A stretch of 64,000 bases of DNA. It comes from a virus. Shown piece after piece: positions 37,175 to 62,250 of the stretch. The notes beneath the pieces were generated by a model. It saw nothing but the letters and a program-made list of their open reading frames with translations. It made no database searches and was not told the origin of the DNA. The DNA is taken from IMG/VR virus record IMGVR_UViG_3300009093_000034, positions 94,632 to 158,631 of that record. One strand, 5' to 3'. Both the position numbers and the translations under genes were made by a program. Each line of letters opens with the position of its first letter. Position 1 is the stretch's first letter.

Positions 37175-37642
37175 ATGGAACAACTATCAGAATCCTTAGG
37201 CGTCGGCTTCTACAGAGTAGGTCGAATCACCATCCCAGTAAGAATGGCATCACATGCCACAGATCGCCTGGAACAAAGGTTTCCTGGTGTTGAGATCTCC
37301 CAAGTTAAAGAGATATTGAATAAGGGTGTTCAGCAGATCGCCCAACCAAGTGGTCACGTTGAACTTGGGCAATATTTGATCATCGATCAAAATGATGGTG
37401 TGATGTTGCCTATCAAGATTCAGAAGAATGATCGACCTGGGTATGAGAGACAAACCATGGGATTCATCCCAACGGTTATGGATTGGAAACTTCAATCAGA
37501 CTCTGATTACCCTGAAGATCTCTTAGACAAGTACCACTTCTTGAAGAAGATCTACGTAGAAAGTGCTTCACGATGGGAGGTTCCCAATCTGTCGAAGACA
37601 GGAACCTTTAATGGAGAACCTTGTACCATCATCTACGTCTAA
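37175..37642 (+). CDS. hypothetical protein
   Basis: 155 residues. Contains SHATDRLEQRFPGVEISQVKEILNKG (given here as the region 26-50), similar in style to the toxin-like DUF4258/BrnT helix-strand starts, then strands and a C-terminal GTFNGEPCTIIYV. Function uncertain. Leaderless start. Confidence 0.65.
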   Translation: MEQLSESLGVGFYRVGRITIPVRMASHATDRLEQRFPGVEISQVKEILNKGVQQIAQPSGHVELGQYLIIDQNDGVMLPIKIQKNDRPGYERQTMGFIPTVMDWKLQSDSDYPEDLLDKYHFLKKIYVESASRWEVPNLSKTGTFNGEPCTIIYV

Positions 37643-37653
37643 AGGAATTTGAC

Positions 37654-38565
37654 ATGAGTGACACCTTAACACTAGAGATCCTAGTCGGTGCCCCTGCTTC
37701 TGGTAAGTCCACTTACGCAGAAGAAAAACTAAAGACTGAGAAGAACTGGGTGAGGATCAACAAAGATACCTTGAGAACCCAACTTCGTCAGGCCAAGAAA
37801 GATTTTACCGAGCGTGAGCTCAACAGTATTGAAGACATTCACATTGAGGCTGCGCTCAAAGCGGGATCAAGCGTGATCGTTGACGACACCAACTTGAATC
37901 CTTTCCATGTCAAAGATCGTCTACGACCTTTGGGACGGAAGTACGGAGCCAGAGTTCTTGTTAACACTGAGTTTCTTAAGGTTCCTGTGGAAGAACTGAT
38001 TTCTCGAGACAAGAGACGAAAGAACTCTGTTGGTGCAGATGTCATCAACGACATGGTCGACAGGTTCTATGCTACTTGGCTTAGGAACGCCACTCCTTGG
38101 TTGGATACAATCAAGGAAAACAAAGAGAAGACTCCTGTTTATCTCTTTGACTTGGACGGTACCTTGGCCTTCGCTACAGAGCGAGGTTGGTACGAGGACA
38201 AGTTGGCAGGAACGGACACTCCTAACATTCCTGTCATGGGAATCTTGAAGAGTCTTCTTCGCTCTGTGAGAGTCATCTTTGTTTCTGGTCGAGAAGATAA
38301 GTCTTGGCAAGTCACGTGGGATTGGCTCATTAAGCACAGTGAAGTAGGTTTTGACACGTGGGATTCTGGTCAACCTATGCTCTTGATGAGAAAGACGGGT
38401 GACGAGCGTTCTGATGACGTAGTCAAGGCTGAGATCTATAACGAGCAGATCAAGGACAACTTCAATGTTCTTGGGATCTTCGATGATCGACCTAAGGTCG
38501 TTCGAATGTGGAAGTCTCTTGGCTTGTTTGTGTTCGATTGTTACCAATCTGACCAAGAGTTCTAA
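37654..38565 (+). CDS. pseT: polynucleotide kinase/3'-phosphatase
   Basis: 303 residues with an AAAGGA site. Walker A GAPASGKST (12-20) in an N-terminal kinase domain, with RDKRRKN as lid Arg residues, then a C-terminal HAD phosphatase with DLDGT (166-170), SGR (about 212) and FDDR (about 282). This is the T4 Pnkp layout: it phosphorylates 5'-OH RNA and removes 3'-phosphates or 2',3'-cyclic phosphates. It repairs tRNAs cut by host anticodon nucleases together with RNA ligase; two ligases are encoded at 51001 and 61306. Confidence 0.93.
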   Translation: MSDTLTLEILVGAPASGKSTYAEEKLKTEKNWVRINKDTLRTQLRQAKKDFTERELNSIEDIHIEAALKAGSSVIVDDTNLNPFHVKDRLRPLGRKYGARVLVNTEFLKVPVEELISRDKRRKNSVGADVINDMVDRFYATWLRNATPWLDTIKENKEKTPVYLFDLDGTLAFATERGWYEDKLAGTDTPNIPVMGILKSLLRSVRVIFVSGREDKSWQVTWDWLIKHSEVGFDTWDSGQPMLLMRKTGDERSDDVVKAEIYNEQIKDNFNVLGIFDDRPKVVRMWKSLGLFVFDCYQSDQEF

Positions 38566-50744: not shown

Positions 50745-50855
50745 AAAGAGGAAGCAATTCCTGACTTCTACGGAACGTCAGGTGGAAAACTCTTTGCTAT
50801 ACACCCAGCTAATAACTGGCACGCGGATGGTTCACTGAAGTTTCAGTCCGCACAT
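50745..50855 (+). other. spacer with two strong hairpins
   Basis: CCTGAC-TTCTACGGAAC-GTCAGG (50759-50781) and a compound stem GGCA-GCGGA-ACTGAA...TTCAGT-CCGC-TGCC (50817-50858). The second overlaps the 5' end of tRNA-Glu. Confidence 0.4.
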
Positions 50856-50927
50856 GCCTCTGTCGTCTACAGGAAGGATCCCTGGTTTTCACCCAGGCGG
50901 ACGTCGGTTCGAATCCGGCCAGAGGTA
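50856..50927 (+). tRNA. tRNA-Glu(TTC), second copy
   Basis: Acceptor GCCTCTG/CAGAGGT, anticodon stem CCTGG/CCAGG with loop TTTTCAC, T-loop TTCGAAT. Confidence 0.9.
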
Positions 50928-51000
50928 TAATTGGTCATTCGATCAAAACAAGGATCTTTTTGCTACCTTAGGACCGTTTGGTACGCAAAAGGAGAATTTT

Positions 51001-51642
51001 ATGATAGAGTATCCATCAATCATCAACAGCTCAAAAGCACCTCGTCAATCGATGATTGCGTTTGAGAAGTTGGACGGGAGTAACATCCGAGTCAAGTACA
51101 CAGCTAAGAGAGGATTTGATCTCTTCGGAAGTCGAACTCAACTATTGGATGAAACTCATCCGATTCTTGGTGGTGTAGTCAAAGTCTTCAACGAGACCTG
51201 TAAGGAAGCGTTGGAAGAGTACTTCAGGAAGTACTACTCAAAGGAACGAGAGATCGAAGTCTTCGGAGAGTACGTCGGGCCTAACTCGTTTGCAGGCTTC
51301 CACTCGGATCCTGTTGACAAGATGAAGTTCGTGCTGTTTGACGTTATGATGATCCGTAAGGGTTATAATGAGTTCTTGCTTCCGCAGGAGTTCATCAAGC
51401 TAGCGGAGCGTAACGCATCAGTTCCAGTCCCTAGAGTGATCTACGAAGGTAATCTTACCGACGATTTCATCTCAAGAGTCCGTGCTGACGAGTTTGGAAC
51501 ATTCGAAGGTGTGGTCTGTAAGGGAAAGCAAGGACTCGGTTCTTTCCGAGGGAAAGTTTGGATGTGCAAGATCAAAACGAATGCATATCTAGAACTTCTC
51601 AAAGAAAAGAAAGGCGCAGACTGGGTTAAGTTTGCAGAGTAA
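51001..51642 (+). CDS. RNA ligase (Rnl2-like)
   Basis: 213 residues, AAGGAG site. Nucleotidyltransferase motif I K23-L-D-G-S, motif III EVFGEYVG (about 88), motif IV FEGVVCK (about 168) and motif V WMCKIKT (about 187). It forms a ligase-AMP and seals RNA nicks or tRNA halves. With the kinase/phosphatase at 37654 it makes a complete heal-and-seal pathway. It lacks the Rnl2 C-terminal helical domain, so it is a minimal ligase. Confidence 0.88.
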   Translation: MIEYPSIINSSKAPRQSMIAFEKLDGSNIRVKYTAKRGFDLFGSRTQLLDETHPILGGVVKVFNETCKEALEEYFRKYYSKEREIEVFGEYVGPNSFAGFHSDPVDKMKFVLFDVMMIRKGYNEFLLPQEFIKLAERNASVPVPRVIYEGNLTDDFISRVRADEFGTFEGVVCKGKQGLGSFRGKVWMCKIKTNAYLELLKEKKGADWVKFAE

Positions 51643-52117: not shown

Positions 52118-52122
52118 TCTTT

Positions 52123-52211
52123 TGGGGTGCTTTTGGGAGGGAAACACGGTTCGAGTCCGTGGATGCTGGGTGCGGCGACGGCCACCGGGGGTTCGATTCC
52201 CCTCACCTCAA
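52123..52211 (+). tRNA. tRNA-Ser(CGA)-like lacking a D-arm
   Basis: Acceptor TGGGGTG/CACCTCA, anticodon-like hairpin CACGG-TTCGAGT-CCGTG (CGA after T33), a long variable region (GGTGCGGCGACGGCC) and T-arm GGGG-TTCGATT-CCCC. Only about 15 bases separate acceptor and anticodon stem. Alternatively a duplicated T-arm. Confidence 0.5.
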
Positions 52212-52299
52212 TACAAAATACTCTAGTTTTCTTACCTGTTAAATCTTAAACTAATCTCCGTTAGGAGAAAAATTAGGAATTACCAGGAGGTAATGATAT

Positions 52300-53295
52300 A
52301 TGCAAGATACTAGAGGCAACAAGAATCCTCTCGTAGGCTGGATCACACTAGGAGTAATTGCTCTCCTTGCTGTAACAGTCGTGTTTTCTTCTTTCTCTGT
52401 GATTGGTTCTACCGATCGTGGTGTAAAGATCCGATTGGGTGCTATTCAAACTGACCAAGGAGTTCTTCCTTCAGGTCTCGTCTGGAAGATCCCTTTCATC
52501 GAAGACGTAAGAACGATTTCGATGTTGCCTCAAGAGATCGATGTCTCGATCAAGGTCGATGATGATGGTGCAATCACTAAGGATAACCAGACCATCGGCA
52601 TGGGATTGACAGTGTTCTATACTTACAAGCCTGAAGGGGTCGTTCAGATCCTGAAAGATTTGTCAGTAGAAAAAGTTGCCAGCTTGGTACAGTCAGGTAT
52701 GGTTCAGGACGTTAAGCAGGTTCATGGTGGGTACTCGATCTACGATATCGCCCAGAACCAAGCAAAGCTCCAACAGGAATCCATGGCTTCACTTAAGCAG
52801 ACGATGTCCGCCTACCCTATCAACGTGACTGAGCTTCGTATCAAGAACTACGATTGGGGAAAAGAGTTTGACGAGCAGATCAAGACTACGATGTCTAAGG
52901 CCCAACAGGTTCTTCAGGCAAAGCAAGACTTGGATCGAAGAACTATCGAACTCCAGAAAGACGTTGCTGAATCAAGTGCTAAGAAGCAACAAACTGTGTT
53001 GGACGCAGAAGCTGCTGCTCAACAGGTTACCATCGCTGCTACTGCAGAGAAGGACGCCGCAAGAGCTAGAGCTGAAGCTAAGACCATTGAGGGTGAGGCC
53101 ATACGAAAGTACAACGCCTCTATCGCCCAGAACCTTGATGTTCAACTTGCTTTGAAGAAGTTGGATATCGAAGCGACCAAAGCTGCTAGATGGGACGGAC
53201 ATAACGTTCCTACGAACAACTACGGTCCAATTCCTGTCCAAACCAACGCTGGCCTTGCTGGTGTGAAAGTGGACGACGTTTCGAGTCAGAAGTAA
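52300..53295 (+). CDS. SPFH/prohibitin-like membrane protein
   Basis: 331 residues with a strong AGGAGG site. One N-terminal transmembrane helix (about 13-35), an SPFH domain (about 30-200; GVKIRLGAIQ, GLVWKIPFIEDV, IDVSIKVDDD) and an Ala/Gln/Glu-rich coiled coil (about 205-275). SPFH proteins form membrane-bound oligomeric cages; bacterial HflK/C regulate FtsH protease and several jumbo phages carry homologues. It probably scaffolds the host membrane or blocks its proteases. Confidence 0.88.
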   Translation: MQDTRGNKNPLVGWITLGVIALLAVTVVFSSFSVIGSTDRGVKIRLGAIQTDQGVLPSGLVWKIPFIEDVRTISMLPQEIDVSIKVDDDGAITKDNQTIGMGLTVFYTYKPEGVVQILKDLSVEKVASLVQSGMVQDVKQVHGGYSIYDIAQNQAKLQQESMASLKQTMSAYPINVTELRIKNYDWGKEFDEQIKTTMSKAQQVLQAKQDLDRRTIELQKDVAESSAKKQQTVLDAEAAAQQVTIAATAEKDAARARAEAKTIEGEAIRKYNASIAQNLDVQLALKKLDIEATKAARWDGHNVPTNNYGPIPVQTNAGLAGVKVDDVSSQK

Positions 53296-53335: not shown

Positions 53336-53498
53336 GGAGTCCGAACCCCAACAAATCAGAGCAAGGGTGAAGGATCGTTGACCTTATCGTGGAACGTAAC
53401 GGTGAACAGGGCTTCCCAGGCTGGCCAGTAATGGGAATACAACTAACGTAACTAAGTAAGCGCACGAGGCGTGTGGGTGCAACTCCCACTGGACTCCC
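53336..53498 (+). tRNA. tRNA-like interrupted by a long insertion
   Basis: Acceptor GGAGTCC/GGACTCC is perfect and the T-arm GTGGG-TGCAACT-CCCAC is canonical, but 163 bases separate the ends. The interior has GGG-CTT-CCC and other stems and no assignable anticodon. Confidence 0.5.
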
Positions 53499-53526
53499 TT
53501 TTATACTAAAATGTAGTAGGTAATTC

Positions 53527-53994
53527 ATGGATCATCCTTACGGCTTCTATATCACAGAAGAAAATGAGATATTAAGCTTTGATGAGGAAGACTACAAGTT
53601 TCCCATCTCCAGAGTAGACAAAATGTCTCACCCTGGAAGAATCTATACAGGAGAGAACATGCACAGTGCTGTTTATTGCCCTTCGTGTAATCGAAGGCAC
53701 ACCAAGGCCGATGCTCGTCGAGCCCGCGGAACGATTTTTGTTCCTTGCTCTTGCGGAAGTCACTTCGACTTCTACAATCAGAACCTGATCAACACGGTGC
53801 TTGCCGTCGAGTTGATGCAGCTGGCTATGGACACGAGTCCTTTCACGGATTTCTCGACTCCTAGCTTCGACCCCAGTCCCAGCTACGATTCTTCGCCGAG
53901 CTATGACTCGTCACCGAGTTTCGATAGCTCTCCCAGCTTTGATTCGAGTCCTTCGTTCGACTCGAGTTCGAGCTTCGATTCCAGTTCTTTTTGA
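53527..53994 (+). CDS. zinc protein with Ser/Asp/Phe tandem repeats
   Basis: 155 residues. N-terminal beta region, then a zinc-type set YCPSCNRRH...VPCSCGSHF (about 50-80), a short hydrophobic helix, and a C-terminal tail of about 45 residues built from repeats of S-P-S-(F/Y)-D-S. The tail is low in complexity and resembles sticker-spacer sequences in condensate-forming proteins (inference). Its codons use many AGC/TCG/AGT Ser variants, so the DNA repeat is degenerate and kept by selection on protein. Confidence 0.7.
   Translation: MDHPYGFYITEENEILSFDEEDYKFPISRVDKMSHPGRIYTGENMHSAVYCPSCNRRHTKADARRARGTIFVPCSCGSHFDFYNQNLINTVLAVELMQLAMDTSPFTDFSTPSFDPSPSYDSSPSYDSSPSFDSSPSFDSSPSFDSSSSFDSSSF
53855..53992 (+). 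repeat. protein-level tandem repeat S-P-S-(F/Y)-D-S
   Basis: About seven repeats of a six-residue unit encoded with varied codons at the 3' end of the gene above. Confidence 0.75.
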
Positions 53995-53999
53995 TCAAT

Positions 54000-54249
54000 A
54001 AGACTTAGTTCGCCCTGTCGCTGGAGCCTGCAGGTCAGTGCCTCCAGAGGAAGTTCGCGGCGCCAAAACCTACCGTGGGAGACCTAATCCGTCGTTATCA
54101 CCACGTAAGGCGCAACCTAAACAGCTTGAGGGTGTCGGTTTCCCTTTGAGAGCGGGTTAGGGCAGCCAGAGAAGGCCATGGACACGAAAGTGTCTGTGAG
54201 ATAAATGACGATGGGTAGAAACAGAACCGCGGCTATGAGACTAAGTCTT
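54000..54249 (+). ncRNA. rnpB: RNase P RNA
   Basis: About 250 bases closed by P1 AAGACTTAGT/ACTAAGTCTT. P3 hairpin CTGGAG/CTCCAG is followed by the core CR-I tract AGAGGAAGTTCGCGGC; near the 3' end GAGATAAATGAC and then ACAGAACCGCGGCTATGAG match the bacterial CR-V consensus (AGATGAATGAC, ACAGAACCCGGCTTAT). The P4 strands covary (CGCGG with CCGCG). A GACAC-GAAA-GTGTC tetraloop hairpin lies between. It is the ribozyme that cuts tRNA 5' leaders. It is shorter than E. coli M1 RNA (377) but has the catalytic core. It would need host RNase P protein or work alone. Confidence 0.9.
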
Positions 54250-54267
54250 TCTTTTAAGGAAAAGAAA

Positions 54268-54597
54268 ATGAAATTGTTTGCTATCTTAGCTTTTGCTTTG
54301 GCATTGGTGTCGTGCTCTCCTGACAATGATCTGTCTCACGCCACGTATCCTGTTCGAGTTCTTTCAGTGTTCACTAACACCACAGAAGAAGTCGGATTCA
54401 ACGGTACCAAGTTTACCAAAACAAACGGTTTTTCTACAGTGATCTATGTGGATGCCACTGGACGATCTTTCACTATCCAGGACTTTGGCATCCCTCAAGT
54501 GACCCCTGGTCAGCAGATCGAACTTCCTAAGGCCGAAAATCAACTTGGCCCAGAACTTCCTCCCCCTGCCAGTCCTGTTCCTACGAGTCAACCATGA
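54268..54597 (+). CDS. lipoprotein
   Basis: 109 residues from the ATG at 54268, with AAGGAAAAG just downstream of the RNase P RNA. Signal peptide with lipobox ALVSC (Cys at about 16). The mature part is Thr/Gly-rich strands with a Pro-rich tail (ELPPPASPVPTSQP). Exported and lipid-anchored; role unknown. Confidence 0.75.
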   Translation: MKLFAILAFALALVSCSPDNDLSHATYPVRVLSVFTNTTEEVGFNGTKFTKTNGFSTVIYVDATGRSFTIQDFGIPQVTPGQQIELPKAENQLGPELPPPASPVPTSQP

Positions 54598-55185: not shown

Positions 55186-55400
55186 AAGGTGTGGTGGAAG
55201 TCCGCTAGTAGATTGCTACTAGGCCCATGTGAATGGCCATTTGTATGGGATTGGGAAACAAAGACACAAGCTAGGTCGGGGCAAGACGGCCCATGTCAGA
55301 GGTTAAACTCTCTATCAACGGAGAGATCCTAGCTGCTACCTTGGTACGAGTATATCTTGGCGGGAAGTCATAGCGTTCAGGTTCGAGACCTGACACCTTT
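55186..55400 (+). tRNA. tRNA-like interrupted by a long insertion
   Basis: Acceptor AAGGTGT/ACACCTT and T-arm CAGG-TTCGAGA-CCTG are 215 bases apart. The insert folds as AGCTAGG/CCTAGCT around CTCTC-TATCAACG-GAGAG, and CTAGTAG-ATTG-CTACTAG occupies the anticodon position. Either an intron-bearing tRNA or a large RNA that uses tRNA ends. Confidence 0.5.
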
Positions 55401-55404
55401 TTAC

Positions 55405-55476
55405 GGGCGGTTCGTTCAACGGATAGGACAGAAGTTTCCTAAACTTCCAATGTGGGTTCGATTCCCGCACTGCTCA
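55405..55476 (+). tRNA. tRNA-Arg(CCT)
   Basis: Acceptor GGGCGGT/ACTGCTC, anticodon stem GAAGT/ACTTC with loop TTCCTAA, T-loop TTCGATT. Confidence 0.92.
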
Positions 55477-57689: not shown

Positions 57690-59258
57690 ATGTCTAGAAT
57701 GGCAAACAACCCCAAGGCTGCTACTGCAGCTAAGACCATGAGGAACATTCCTCAGGCAGATACTTTCAACAAGGCAGGAGGACGAGCATATTCCAAGTCG
57801 GCTAAGGTCGAGCTTGCGGATCTCTTGTTCTCAAACTTCTTGTCCGGAGACACTTACCGAAAGGAAAGTGAAGTCTCCAAGAGGATCGAGGAGCTTGCTT
57901 CTCAGATCGAAGACAAGGAGTTCTTGGCCAAGGCCGCTCTTTACACTCGTAATGAGCTTGGCATGAGGACCATGAGCCATCTGTTGGCAGGTGAGATCGC
58001 TTCCAAGAACTACGCTTCTGGCTCCGGCTGGGGACGTACCTTCTTCGATGCAATCGTCTACCGTGTCGACGACATGGCTGAGATCCTTGGTTACTTCCTC
58101 GGAAAGGACCACAAAGCAATCCCTAACTCCCTAAAGTCTGGCTTCTCGTAAGCCTTCGATCGTTTCGACGCCTACCAGTTGGCCAAGTATCGTGGTGACA
58201 GCAACGCTGTAAAGCTTGTTGACATTGTTCGACTTGTCCACCCGAAGGGAAACGAAAAGAACAAGACTGCTCTTGAGCAACTTGTTAAGGGAACCCTAAG
58301 AAACACCAAGACTTGGGAGGCTAAGGTCTCCGCAGCAGGTCAGAAGGCAACTTCCAAGGAAGCTGTCGCTGCTACCGCTGAGGCTTGGGAAGACCTTCTT
58401 AAGGAGAACAAGCTTGGTTACCTTGCTTTGATTCGTAACTTGACGAACATCGCCAACTCTGTTGATGATGCTACGTTTGAGACGGCTCTGGCTCAGGTGA
58501 TCGATGAGAAGTCTGTAAAGACCTCTCTAGTTCTTCCTTTCCAACTCTACATCGCTGCAAAGCAAGTAGAGAACGAGGGAAGGATCAAGAATCACAGCAG
58601 AATGTCAAAGGTGATCGACGCGCTGACCGCAGCCATCGACGTTTCTTTGTCCAACGTTCCTAAGCTCGAGGGCAAGACTCTCGTTGCAGTGGACATCTCT
58701 GGATCAATGGACTCTCGTCTATCAGCCATGGGTCAAGCTCGTGTTGTTGACGTAGCAACTCTCTTCGGTGTTGTCTTGGCTAAGGCTAACGATGCTGATT
58801 TGGTTCGCTTCAACACCAGTGCTTCCTACTCTGTTGTTCCTAAGTCTAGGTCTACTCTTGACTCTGTCAAGAGCTTGGCACAGACCGGTGGTGGTACTGC
58901 CTTCGAGTCCATCATGTACTTGATCAACCAGTCACAGACTGTCTACGATAGGATCTTGGTTCTATCTGACATGCAGTCTTGGTCAGGAAAGACCGGAGGA
59001 GACTTCGCTCGCCTTGTCCAAGAGTACAGAAACAACAAGAAGCGTCCTAACATGACCTTCCTTTCGTGGGACCTCCACGGAGGAACCTCTCACCAGGTTC
59101 CTGAGTCTGATCCTCGTTCCATCGTCCTAGGAGGATGGAGTGACAAGATCTTCGACATCTTGGCAGAGACCGAGACCGATCGAAACGCTCTAGTGAAGAC
59201 CATCGAAGAGTACGAGATCAAGGTTCCTACCAAGGAACGAGCTCGTAAGACTGCGTAA
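57690..59258 (+). CDS. rsr: Ro60/TROVE-domain protein (Rsr-like) with in-frame TAA
   Basis: Start ATG at 57690 with AAGGAGG. Codon 154 is TAA (58149-58151), but the same frame continues to 59258, giving 522 codons, the usual Ro60 length. Before the stop: TROVE HEAT-like repeats (AALYTRNELGMRTMSHLL). After it: DAYQLAKYRGDSNAVKLVD continues the TROVE domain, then a vWA domain with MIDAS DISGSMDSR (about residue 335). Ro60 is a ring that binds Y RNA and misfolded RNA and feeds exoribonucleases. The stop may be a mutation, readthrough, or a sequencing error; a TTG at 58179 could re-initiate. Confidence 0.88.
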
Positions 59259-61305: not shown

Positions 61306-62250
61306 ATGCGTAAAGACGTCCTCTTGTCTCGCGACGCCTTCCGCAAGGCTGTCTTTGATCGAGACCACAACACATGCGTATTCTGTTCTCTTCCTGCAGT
61401 AGATGCTCACCACATCATGGAGCGAAAGCTCTGGCCTGATGGTGGCTACTATTTGAACAATGGTGCCTCCGTCTGCGAACAGCATCACTGGGATTGTGAG
61501 AACTCCATCATCTCTGTTGAACAAGTCAGAAAGGCTTGTAACATCATCGACATCATTCTTCCTCCTTACTTTTCTGAGAATCAAATCTACGATAAGTGGG
61601 GAAATCAGAAGCTCACGACTGAAGAAGCCGGAGCTATCAAGTACCCTAGAACTTATCACTTCCCTTGGTCCCAAAATCTCATCAACGACGATCGAATGTT
61701 GGAGTCTACTTCTCAGTTCGAACTCAACCACGTGATCGCTACGGTCAAGATGGATGGTGAAAACACGACCATGACTAGAGATGCTTGTCACGCAAGGTCT
61801 CTTGATAGTGGAGCTCATCCTTCTAGAACTTGGGTCAGATCTTTTTGGGGTTCTCTCAAACACAACATTCCAGAAGGTTGGAGAGTTTGTGGAGAAAATC
61901 TTTACGCAAAACACTCAATCCTTTATACTGATCTCACCAGCTATTTCCAAGGCTTATCAATCTGGAATGACAAGAACATTTGTCTGTCCTGGAAAGAGAC
62001 CAAAGAATGGTTTGAACTTCTTGGCATTCAACCTGTCCAAGAGATCTACGATGGCATGTACTACGAAAAAGGCATCAAGGATCTTTGGGACCCAACAAAA
62101 GGTTGGGAAGGCTACGTAGTTCGGTTCGCAGAGGAATTTCCTATGAGAGATTTCAATCTCAAGGTAGGAAAGTTTGTTAGAAAAGGCCATGTTCAAACTG
62201 ATGAACATTGGATGCAACAAGCTCTGACACCTAATAAACTCCAGGCCTAA
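61306..62250 (+). CDS. HNH domain-RNA ligase fusion
   Basis: 314 residues. N-terminal HNH-like part: CVFC (24-27), D-A-H-H (33-36), CEQHHWDCEN (57-66). From about 140 the protein is an RNA ligase: motif I K148-M-D-G-E, CGENLYAKHS (motif III region, about 195-205), motif IV WEGYVVRFAEEF and motif V KVGKFVRKGH near the C-terminus. The ligase seals RNA ends; the HNH part could be a nuclease or a structural zinc module that recognises broken RNA. An unusual combination. Confidence 0.85.
   Translation: MRKDVLLSRDAFRKAVFDRDHNTCVFCSLPAVDAHHIMERKLWPDGGYYLNNGASVCEQHHWDCENSIISVEQVRKACNIIDIILPPYFSENQIYDKWGNQKLTTEEAGAIKYPRTYHFPWSQNLINDDRMLESTSQFELNHVIATVKMDGENTTMTRDACHARSLDSGAHPSRTWVRSFWGSLKHNIPEGWRVCGENLYAKHSILYTDLTSYFQGLSIWNDKNICLSWKETKEWFELLGIQPVQEIYDGMYYEKGIKDLWDPTKGWEGYVVRFAEEFPMRDFNLKVGKFVRKGHVQTDEHWMQQALTPNKLQA

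Follow-up and report, generated by a model that had tools for sequence, protein, structure and literature searches.

A 64,000-nucleotide stretch of viral DNA (here called the window) was found to encode an RNase P RNA at positions 54000 to 54250, and the same RNA was present in at least 115 other records, which extend from a Mahaphage of 735 kb to Stenotrophomonas phage DLP6, available in culture. This viral RNase P variant is real and widespread and apparently undescribed. The RNase P ribozyme is nearly universal and, to our knowledge, has been known only from cells and organelles. A first-pass annotation, made from the sequence alone, had proposed a phage-encoded RNase P RNA at this site, and we could confirm this proposal by a match to the Rfam family RF00010, by an independent covariance model and by the phage genes in the same record. 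The virus record comprises 305,833 bases and encodes a T4-like RIIA, ribonucleotide reductase, a DnaB-like helicase and tail proteins, with further matches to a major head protein and a tail tape-measure protein; no PF03237 terminase was found in it.

When positions 53900-54350 were compared against all Rfam families, the single strong match was to the class A RNase P RNA (RF00010), at 54001-54252 on the plus strand. It spanned the entire model (1-367 of 367) with 39.6 bits (E = 4.6e-11 for the 451 nt searched, or about 7e-9 when scaled to the 64-kb window). Comparison with the Rfam models thus gave an RNase P score, and the best match within the clan was the bacterial rather than the archaeal model. 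In the alignment, GAGGAAGUUCGCGGC falls at CR-I and AACAGAACCGCGGCUA at CR-V, both flanks form P1, and a deletion takes the place of P8-P14. The gathering score of RF00010 is 100 bits, a curated threshold that the window locus does not reach, and standard annotation misses the RNA because its score lies below this cut-off. As an effect of the threshold, neither a gathering-threshold Rfam scan of the window nor an RF00010 search of the genome listed any RNase P. Relatives also scored under the gathering score (54.7 bits for DLP6 and 40.0 bits for the contig L144). An independent covariance model (R2), for which 12 phage RNAs other than that of the window were used, assigned 169.8 bits to the window RNA (E = 2.9e-43), compared to 6.9 bits for its second-best match in the window. 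The minimum free energy did not distinguish the window RNA from shuffled sequences (z = -0.33), an ordinary folding energy that we ascribe to the pseudoknotted nature of the RNA. The evidence for RNase P identity is homology and covariation, not folding energy.

The extent of about 250 bases proposed initially was upheld, and CR-I, CR-V, P1, P3 and P4 were all found as claimed. The window RNA additionally contains P2, P5, P6, P7, P15, P16, P17, P18 and one extra hairpin, and it lacks the specificity domain (S-domain). This loss was not visible to the first-pass annotation, and neither were the breadth of the family and the presence of RnpA in some phages. Its parts are as follows, with the percentage of paired cells in the family given in brackets.

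54000-54250, plus strand: entire phage RNase P RNA of about 250 nt, matched by the core model at 54002-54247
54002-54009, plus strand: 5' strand of P1, GACUUAGU, pairing with 54240-54247
54013-54019, plus strand: 5' strand of P2, pairing with 54207-54215 (90.4%)
54021-54047, plus strand: P3 hairpin, 54021-54026 with 54042-54047 (94.8%)
54047-54060, plus strand: CR-I, GAGGAAGUUCGCGG, with the 5' strand of P4 at 54052-54060 and the bulged U at 54055
54061-54064, plus strand: 5' strand of P5, CGCC, pairing with GGCG at 54109-54112 (99.7%)
54066-54070, plus strand: 5' strand of the P6 pseudoknot, AAACC, pairing with GGUUU at 54137-54141 in L17
54074-54105, plus strand: P7, 54074-54078 with 54101-54105, closing the vestigial S-domain (92.1%)
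Within P7, plus strand: S-domain stub of 22 nt with a 3-bp hairpin, 54081-54083 with 54091-54093 (100%)
54116-54161, plus strand: P15, CCU at 54116-54118 with AGG at 54159-54161, enclosing P16 and P17 (98.3%)
54124-54127 with 54150-54153, plus strand: P16 (97.0%)
54129-54132 with 54142-54145, plus strand: P17 (90.2%)
54154-54157, plus strand: GGGU of J16/15 (L15 motif), with GGU in nearly all of 95 members
54165-54176, plus strand: extra hairpin, seen in roughly a third of the family
54181-54194, plus strand: P18 with a GAAA loop, likewise seen in roughly a third of the family
54221-54234, plus strand: CR-IV/V, ACAGAACCGCGGCU, with the 3' strand of P4 at 54227-54234
54240-54247, plus strand: 3' strand of P1, ACUAAGUC, partner of 54002-54009

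In bacterial RNase P RNA, the GGU of L15 pairs with the 3' CCA of the tRNA. P2 pairs imperfectly in the window and regularly in the relatives.

Searching 50,697 phage records with blastn yielded one relative, the 735-kb Mahaphage LR756501 (duplicate record LR756503), with 67% identity. The two RNAs have CR-I, CR-V, the S-domain stub and J15/16 in common and show compensating differences in P1 and P5. No relatives were recovered by an exact CR-V pattern search or via the neighboring SPFH gene, and further candidates came from pattern scans of IMG/VR. For the vast majority of the 130 loci matched by the patterns, complementarity held at every one of the four P4 pairs left free by the pattern. 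A covariance model trained on eight members (R1) gave scores above 40 bits over its full length to almost all of the 100 sources selected, the window among them, and also matched 22 of the 44 remaining loci; chance loci stayed below 18 bits. Two candidates scored lower, L081 with 25 bits and L038 with no match. The count of at least 115 includes DLP6, LR756511, LR745206, LR756502 and two contigs from metagenome-assembled genomes (MAGs; L144 and L151). The RNase P RNA of DLP6, at 105774-106018 of KU682439.2, is unannotated in its record. For most loci, the conservation of GAGGAA, UC, ACAGRA and GGCUAY is partly imposed by the search patterns; the window, L001, DLP6 and LR756511 were found by similarity, with no pattern imposed. 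We rejected a match in Streptomyces phage LilMartin, which lacks CR-V and gave no model match, and regarded L003, L004, L007-L009, L011, L013, L014, L016-L022, L027, L048 and L063 as chance pattern matches.

In an alignment of 99 distinct sequences, standard pairs occupied 93.8% of the 5,269 pair cells, compared to 60.3% in column shuffles and 30-39% with slid partners, and two-sided changes were observed at 60 of the 65 pairs. P4 and P6, which were omitted from the model, were 93.3% paired when counted alone (27-41% when slid); P6 showed 85.9% and 74.6% pairing despite its omission. In P1, 92.9% of the family cells were paired and all eight pairs showed two-sided changes. The covariation spans 14 helices, including the P4 and P6 pseudoknots, at a median pairwise identity of 57%. 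Judging from pairing and covariation, the RNA therefore possesses a complete class A catalytic domain (P1-P7, P15-P17). Family members are 186-260 nt long (median, 220 nt), with a median of 22 nt inside P7 and about 49 nt inside P5. J15/16 reads AAACA and J18/2 reads AGAUNAAUG. The long J15/2 region with P18 and the extra hairpin occurs in 32 of 95 members; P18 is missing in the other 63 and present in the window. Each of 16 matched records carried exactly one copy. Two loci had unusual arrangements. At L010:3205-3536, a hydrophobic open frame of about 44 codons with a GTG start is inserted in the S-domain mini-hairpin, the stem of which is extended around the insert. At L005:3213-3551 (minus strand), a second, partial tandem copy (51 bits) lies upstream of the intact one.

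Loss of the catalytic P4 residues, which had been named as grounds for rejecting the annotation, was not seen: the bulged U is kept, as are ACAGAA and the C-G and A-U pairs that flank the bulge. Although the P4 pseudoknot is absent from the model, P4 was 97.7% paired across the 99 distinct sequences, with two-sided changes at four pairs, and the bulged U was present in 95 of 95 members (partly imposed by the pattern). The bacterial P4 sequence A-A-G-[bulged U]-C is replaced by A-G-(U/C)-[U]-C in the phages, where the 3' strand GGCU compensates and the bulge is bordered by A-U, G-C, (U/C)-G and C-G pairs. The positions equivalent to E. coli A67 and G68 are thus G and U/C rather than the bacterial bases, and they are still paired. 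The bulged U is universally conserved and binds metal through its O4, while the other named ligands are backbone (phosphate) oxygens (PMC4919922). Since the bulged U and the pairs are kept and the other ligands are backbone oxygens, the catalytic geometry is plausibly intact, with two adjacent bases off the bacterial consensus; catalysis itself is inferred from the sequence.

The phage RNAs share with bacterial class A RNA (RF00010, rnpB) P1-P7, P15-P17, the P4 and P6 pseudoknots, CR-I, CR-IV and CR-V, the bulged U, the GGU of L15 and J18/2, and in one third of members also P18. They differ in lacking P8-P14 and the CR-II/III S-domain, in their P4 (AG[U/C]-U-C instead of AAG-U-C, with the register shifted in sequence), in the optional extra hairpin between P15 and P18, and in being virus encoded, located inside tRNA operons and scored far below the gathering threshold. 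They are unlike class B RNA, which has no P6 and in which P5.1 and P15.1 replace P16 and P17, since they contain P6, P16 and P17. The human nuclear RNase P RNA (H1) has a P4 of AGC-U-C...GGCU, like the phage variant; the likeness is limited to P4, and the rest differs. The closest architectural analogue is the archaeal type T/P RNA of Pyrobaculum, which, according to the accounts of Lai et al. (2010) given in PMC4919922 and PMC5839562, has a lost or degenerate S-domain, no P18 and a modelled P6. In the phages, the S-domain is reduced family-wide, and P18 is missing in only part of the family, the window RNA having retained it. In contrast to type T, which has an archaeal host and archaeal proteins, the phage RNAs match the bacterial model best and the phage RnpA is of bacterial type.

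A pattern scan covering 84,980 bacterial and archaeal species, with one genome per species, yielded ten stretches, only two of which (L144 and L151) were true members; the pattern allowed one gap range only, and the scan was hence not exhaustive. Both lie on short, tRNA-rich MAG contigs that are probably misbinned phage, and 60 additional genomes from the phylum to which L151 belongs gave no match to the phage model. A stretch from a Micrarchaeota genome (L146) matched the pattern but is an archaeal RNase P RNA (RF00373, 82 bits; only 30.8 bits with the phage model), and the other matches were noise. On L151, a c-di-GMP-I riboswitch (RF03167, 64.5 bits) was observed at 417-497, close to the phage-type RNase P RNA.

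The first-pass annotation had placed the RNA next to a tRNA array. Its association with tRNAs held, but the RNA is located within the tRNA region, not alongside it, the nearest tRNAs being at 52122-52212 and 55405-55476. The relevant features are the following.

13466-55476, plus strand (all genes): tRNA region of 48 genes, mostly without encoded CCA, the inferred substrates
37621-38565, 50854-51642 and 61306-62250, plus strand: polynucleotide kinase-phosphatase and two RNA ligases
G000:C1:163417-163785, just outside the window: CCA-adding enzyme

ARAGORN detected these 48 tRNAs in the window, only three of which encode CCA, and Rfam detected 50 in the whole record. The kinase-phosphatase, the ligases and the CCA-adding enzyme, which is also found in other phages, make up a kit for tRNA repair, maturation and maintenance. 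At all 86 loci with tRNAs, the nearest tRNA shared the strand of the RNase P RNA and lay at a median distance of 11.5 nt; the distance was at most 100 nt at 50 of these loci, compared to 12% of random placements. Twenty-two IMG/VR records of 104-494 kb contained 6-74 tRNAs each, and 15 carriers of 46-76 kb contained 8-39, versus 0-1 in 13 decoy viral contigs of 16-73 kb. In DLP6, the 3' end of the RNase P RNA lies about 8 nt before tRNA-Arg, so that cleavage of this tRNA leader, which we infer, would also trim the 3' end of the ribozyme itself.

Among 49 carriers searched, one (G011, 476 kb) encodes the protein subunit RnpA, next to a head maturation protease gene. Queries with this protein identified five further RnpA proteins, three of them on additional IMG/VR contigs and the other two in LR745206 (635 kb) and LR756502 (642 kb). 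All six proteins (38.9-52.5 bits) passed the TIGR00188 equivalog cut-off of 38.35 as well as the Pfam cut-off (PF00825). They are 96-103 amino acids long, are 49-68% identical to the first phage protein and share the motif FAVSSKKF(K/R)RAVDRNxxKRLM with the bacterial RnpA family; similarity to solved bacterial RnpA was weak (E = 3e-4). An AlphaFold model based on four sequences reached a pLDDT of 52.7 and was discarded as evidence. RNA and RnpA occur together in G011, LR745206 and LR756502, which judging by gene content would encode a complete viral RNase P, its activity being inferred. The RNA model matched none of the other three contigs (L159, L160 and L161; two contigs of 159 and 242 kb and one 16-kb fragment), possibly due to incomplete records, a divergent RNA or use of phage RnpA with host RNA. 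No RnpA was found in the virus record of the window.

We consider it likely that the RNA acts as a catalytically active RNase P consisting of the C-domain alone and trims the pre-tRNAs of the phage, mostly with host RnpA. Structure, family, operon context and RnpA homologues are demonstrated; catalysis, expression, RnpA binding and substrates are inferred. The RNA would be co-transcribed with the phage tRNAs, fold into the class A catalytic core and remove the 5' leaders of phage pre-tRNAs. Host RnpA would probably be recruited in most phages, including that of the window, and at least three huge phages might use their own. With the loss of the S-domain, T-loop recognition would be lost, and specificity would consequently be determined by the acceptor stem and the leader together with the CCA-GGU contact. 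The presumed benefit is a tRNA supply whenever host RNase P becomes limiting or is shut off. In E. coli, the isolated C-domain is able to cleave regardless of whether the C5 protein is present, and in the absence of the S-domain P6-like pairing matters and P18 is dispensable (PMC5839562). An active enzyme is favored because the phage pattern (S-domain gone, P6 kept, P18 lost in two thirds) matches these requirements. Weighing against this reading are the departure of the metal-binding helix P4 from the bacterial consensus, the lack of an identified RnpA in the window's record, and the cost of S-domain removal to the model enzymes, which are slowed about 120-fold in E. coli and 25,000-fold in B. 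subtilis (PMC5839562).

A catalytically dead or slow RNA could instead act as a decoy that titrates host RnpA, blocking host RNase P and the host tRNA supply. The RnpA-binding face of RNase P RNA is in the C-domain, which the phages retain, most carriers have no RnpA of their own, and P4 deviates beside the metal site. This role is possible but seems unlikely to us, being hard to reconcile with the retention of active-site and CCA-binding elements distant from the RnpA contacts (the bulged U of P4, the GGU of J16/15, and J18/2), with a location in the tRNA operons of phages whose tRNAs must be matured, and with an RnpA in three phages that would be pointless for a decoy. It appears similarly unlikely that an active ribozyme acts mainly on non-tRNA substrates, such as host RNAs, mRNAs of the phage, or RNAs resembling tmRNA or tRNA. 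Such substrates are known for bacterial RNase P (PMC4919922), a C-domain without T-loop recognition may tolerate them, and the window contains two tRNA-like elements and a Ro60-type protein; however, the RNA is strongly associated with large tRNA arrays and adjacent tRNAs, and its CCA-binding motif is kept. A functionless, decaying copy of a transduced bacterial rnpB, to which the truncated S-domain, the partial tandem copy in L005 and the low Rfam score might point, is highly improbable and already contradicted by compensatory changes in all helices of 99 sequences at a median of 57% identity, by the one intact copy per matched genome and by the restriction of true members in the genome-collection scan to two tRNA-rich, probably misbinned contigs.

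With the reading as an active tRNA-trimming enzyme retained, we lean towards regarding phage RNase P as a distinct structural class, C-domain-only, widespread and with its own P4 signature, which in the largest phages forms a complete holoenzyme and which frees tRNA maturation from the host, under substrate rules altered because the T-loop-binding domain is gone. The initial assessment of a viral RNase P RNA as little or not described holds within the open-access full-text literature (5.39 million papers), where we found no description; subscription papers and bioRxiv were outside the search, and a prior mention is possible. RNase P appears nowhere in the text of the huge-phage paper describing the Mahaphage clade, of a 2026 jumbo-phage review or of a 2021 jumbo-phage survey, and the DLP6 paper reports 30 tRNAs and no ribonuclease P. 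A virus-borne family, some members with a protein subunit, extends RNase P to viruses and constitutes a natural experiment on the purpose of the S-domain and P18. It suggests a route by which tRNA-rich phages may sustain their tRNAs during host takeover or tRNA-directed defence, reveals an annotation gap in which a gathering score hides an entire phage RNA family, and provides structural studies with numerous natural C-domain ribozymes of small size (186-260 nt), with the cultured DLP6 giving direct access for testing.

Directly upstream of the RNA, the plus strand of the window encodes an SPFH/Band 7 protein (52300-53295) and a protein with a repetitive SFDSSPS-type C terminus (53527-53994). 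The two large non-coding elements, at 53336-53500 and 55190-55398 on the plus strand, comprise a tRNA-like T-arm and acceptor stem that enclose 110-160 nt of other sequence; neither matched Rfam, and they could be tmRNA-like, Y-RNA-like or intron-bearing tRNAs. Bacterial Ro60-type RNA-binding proteins work with tRNA-like Y RNAs, and both elements are candidate partners of the Ro60-type protein (TROVE plus vWA) encoded at 58179-59258 on the plus strand. In the tRNA region of DLP6, a weak match to a permuted tmRNA was observed at L155:1-89 (42.5 bits; gathering score, 47).
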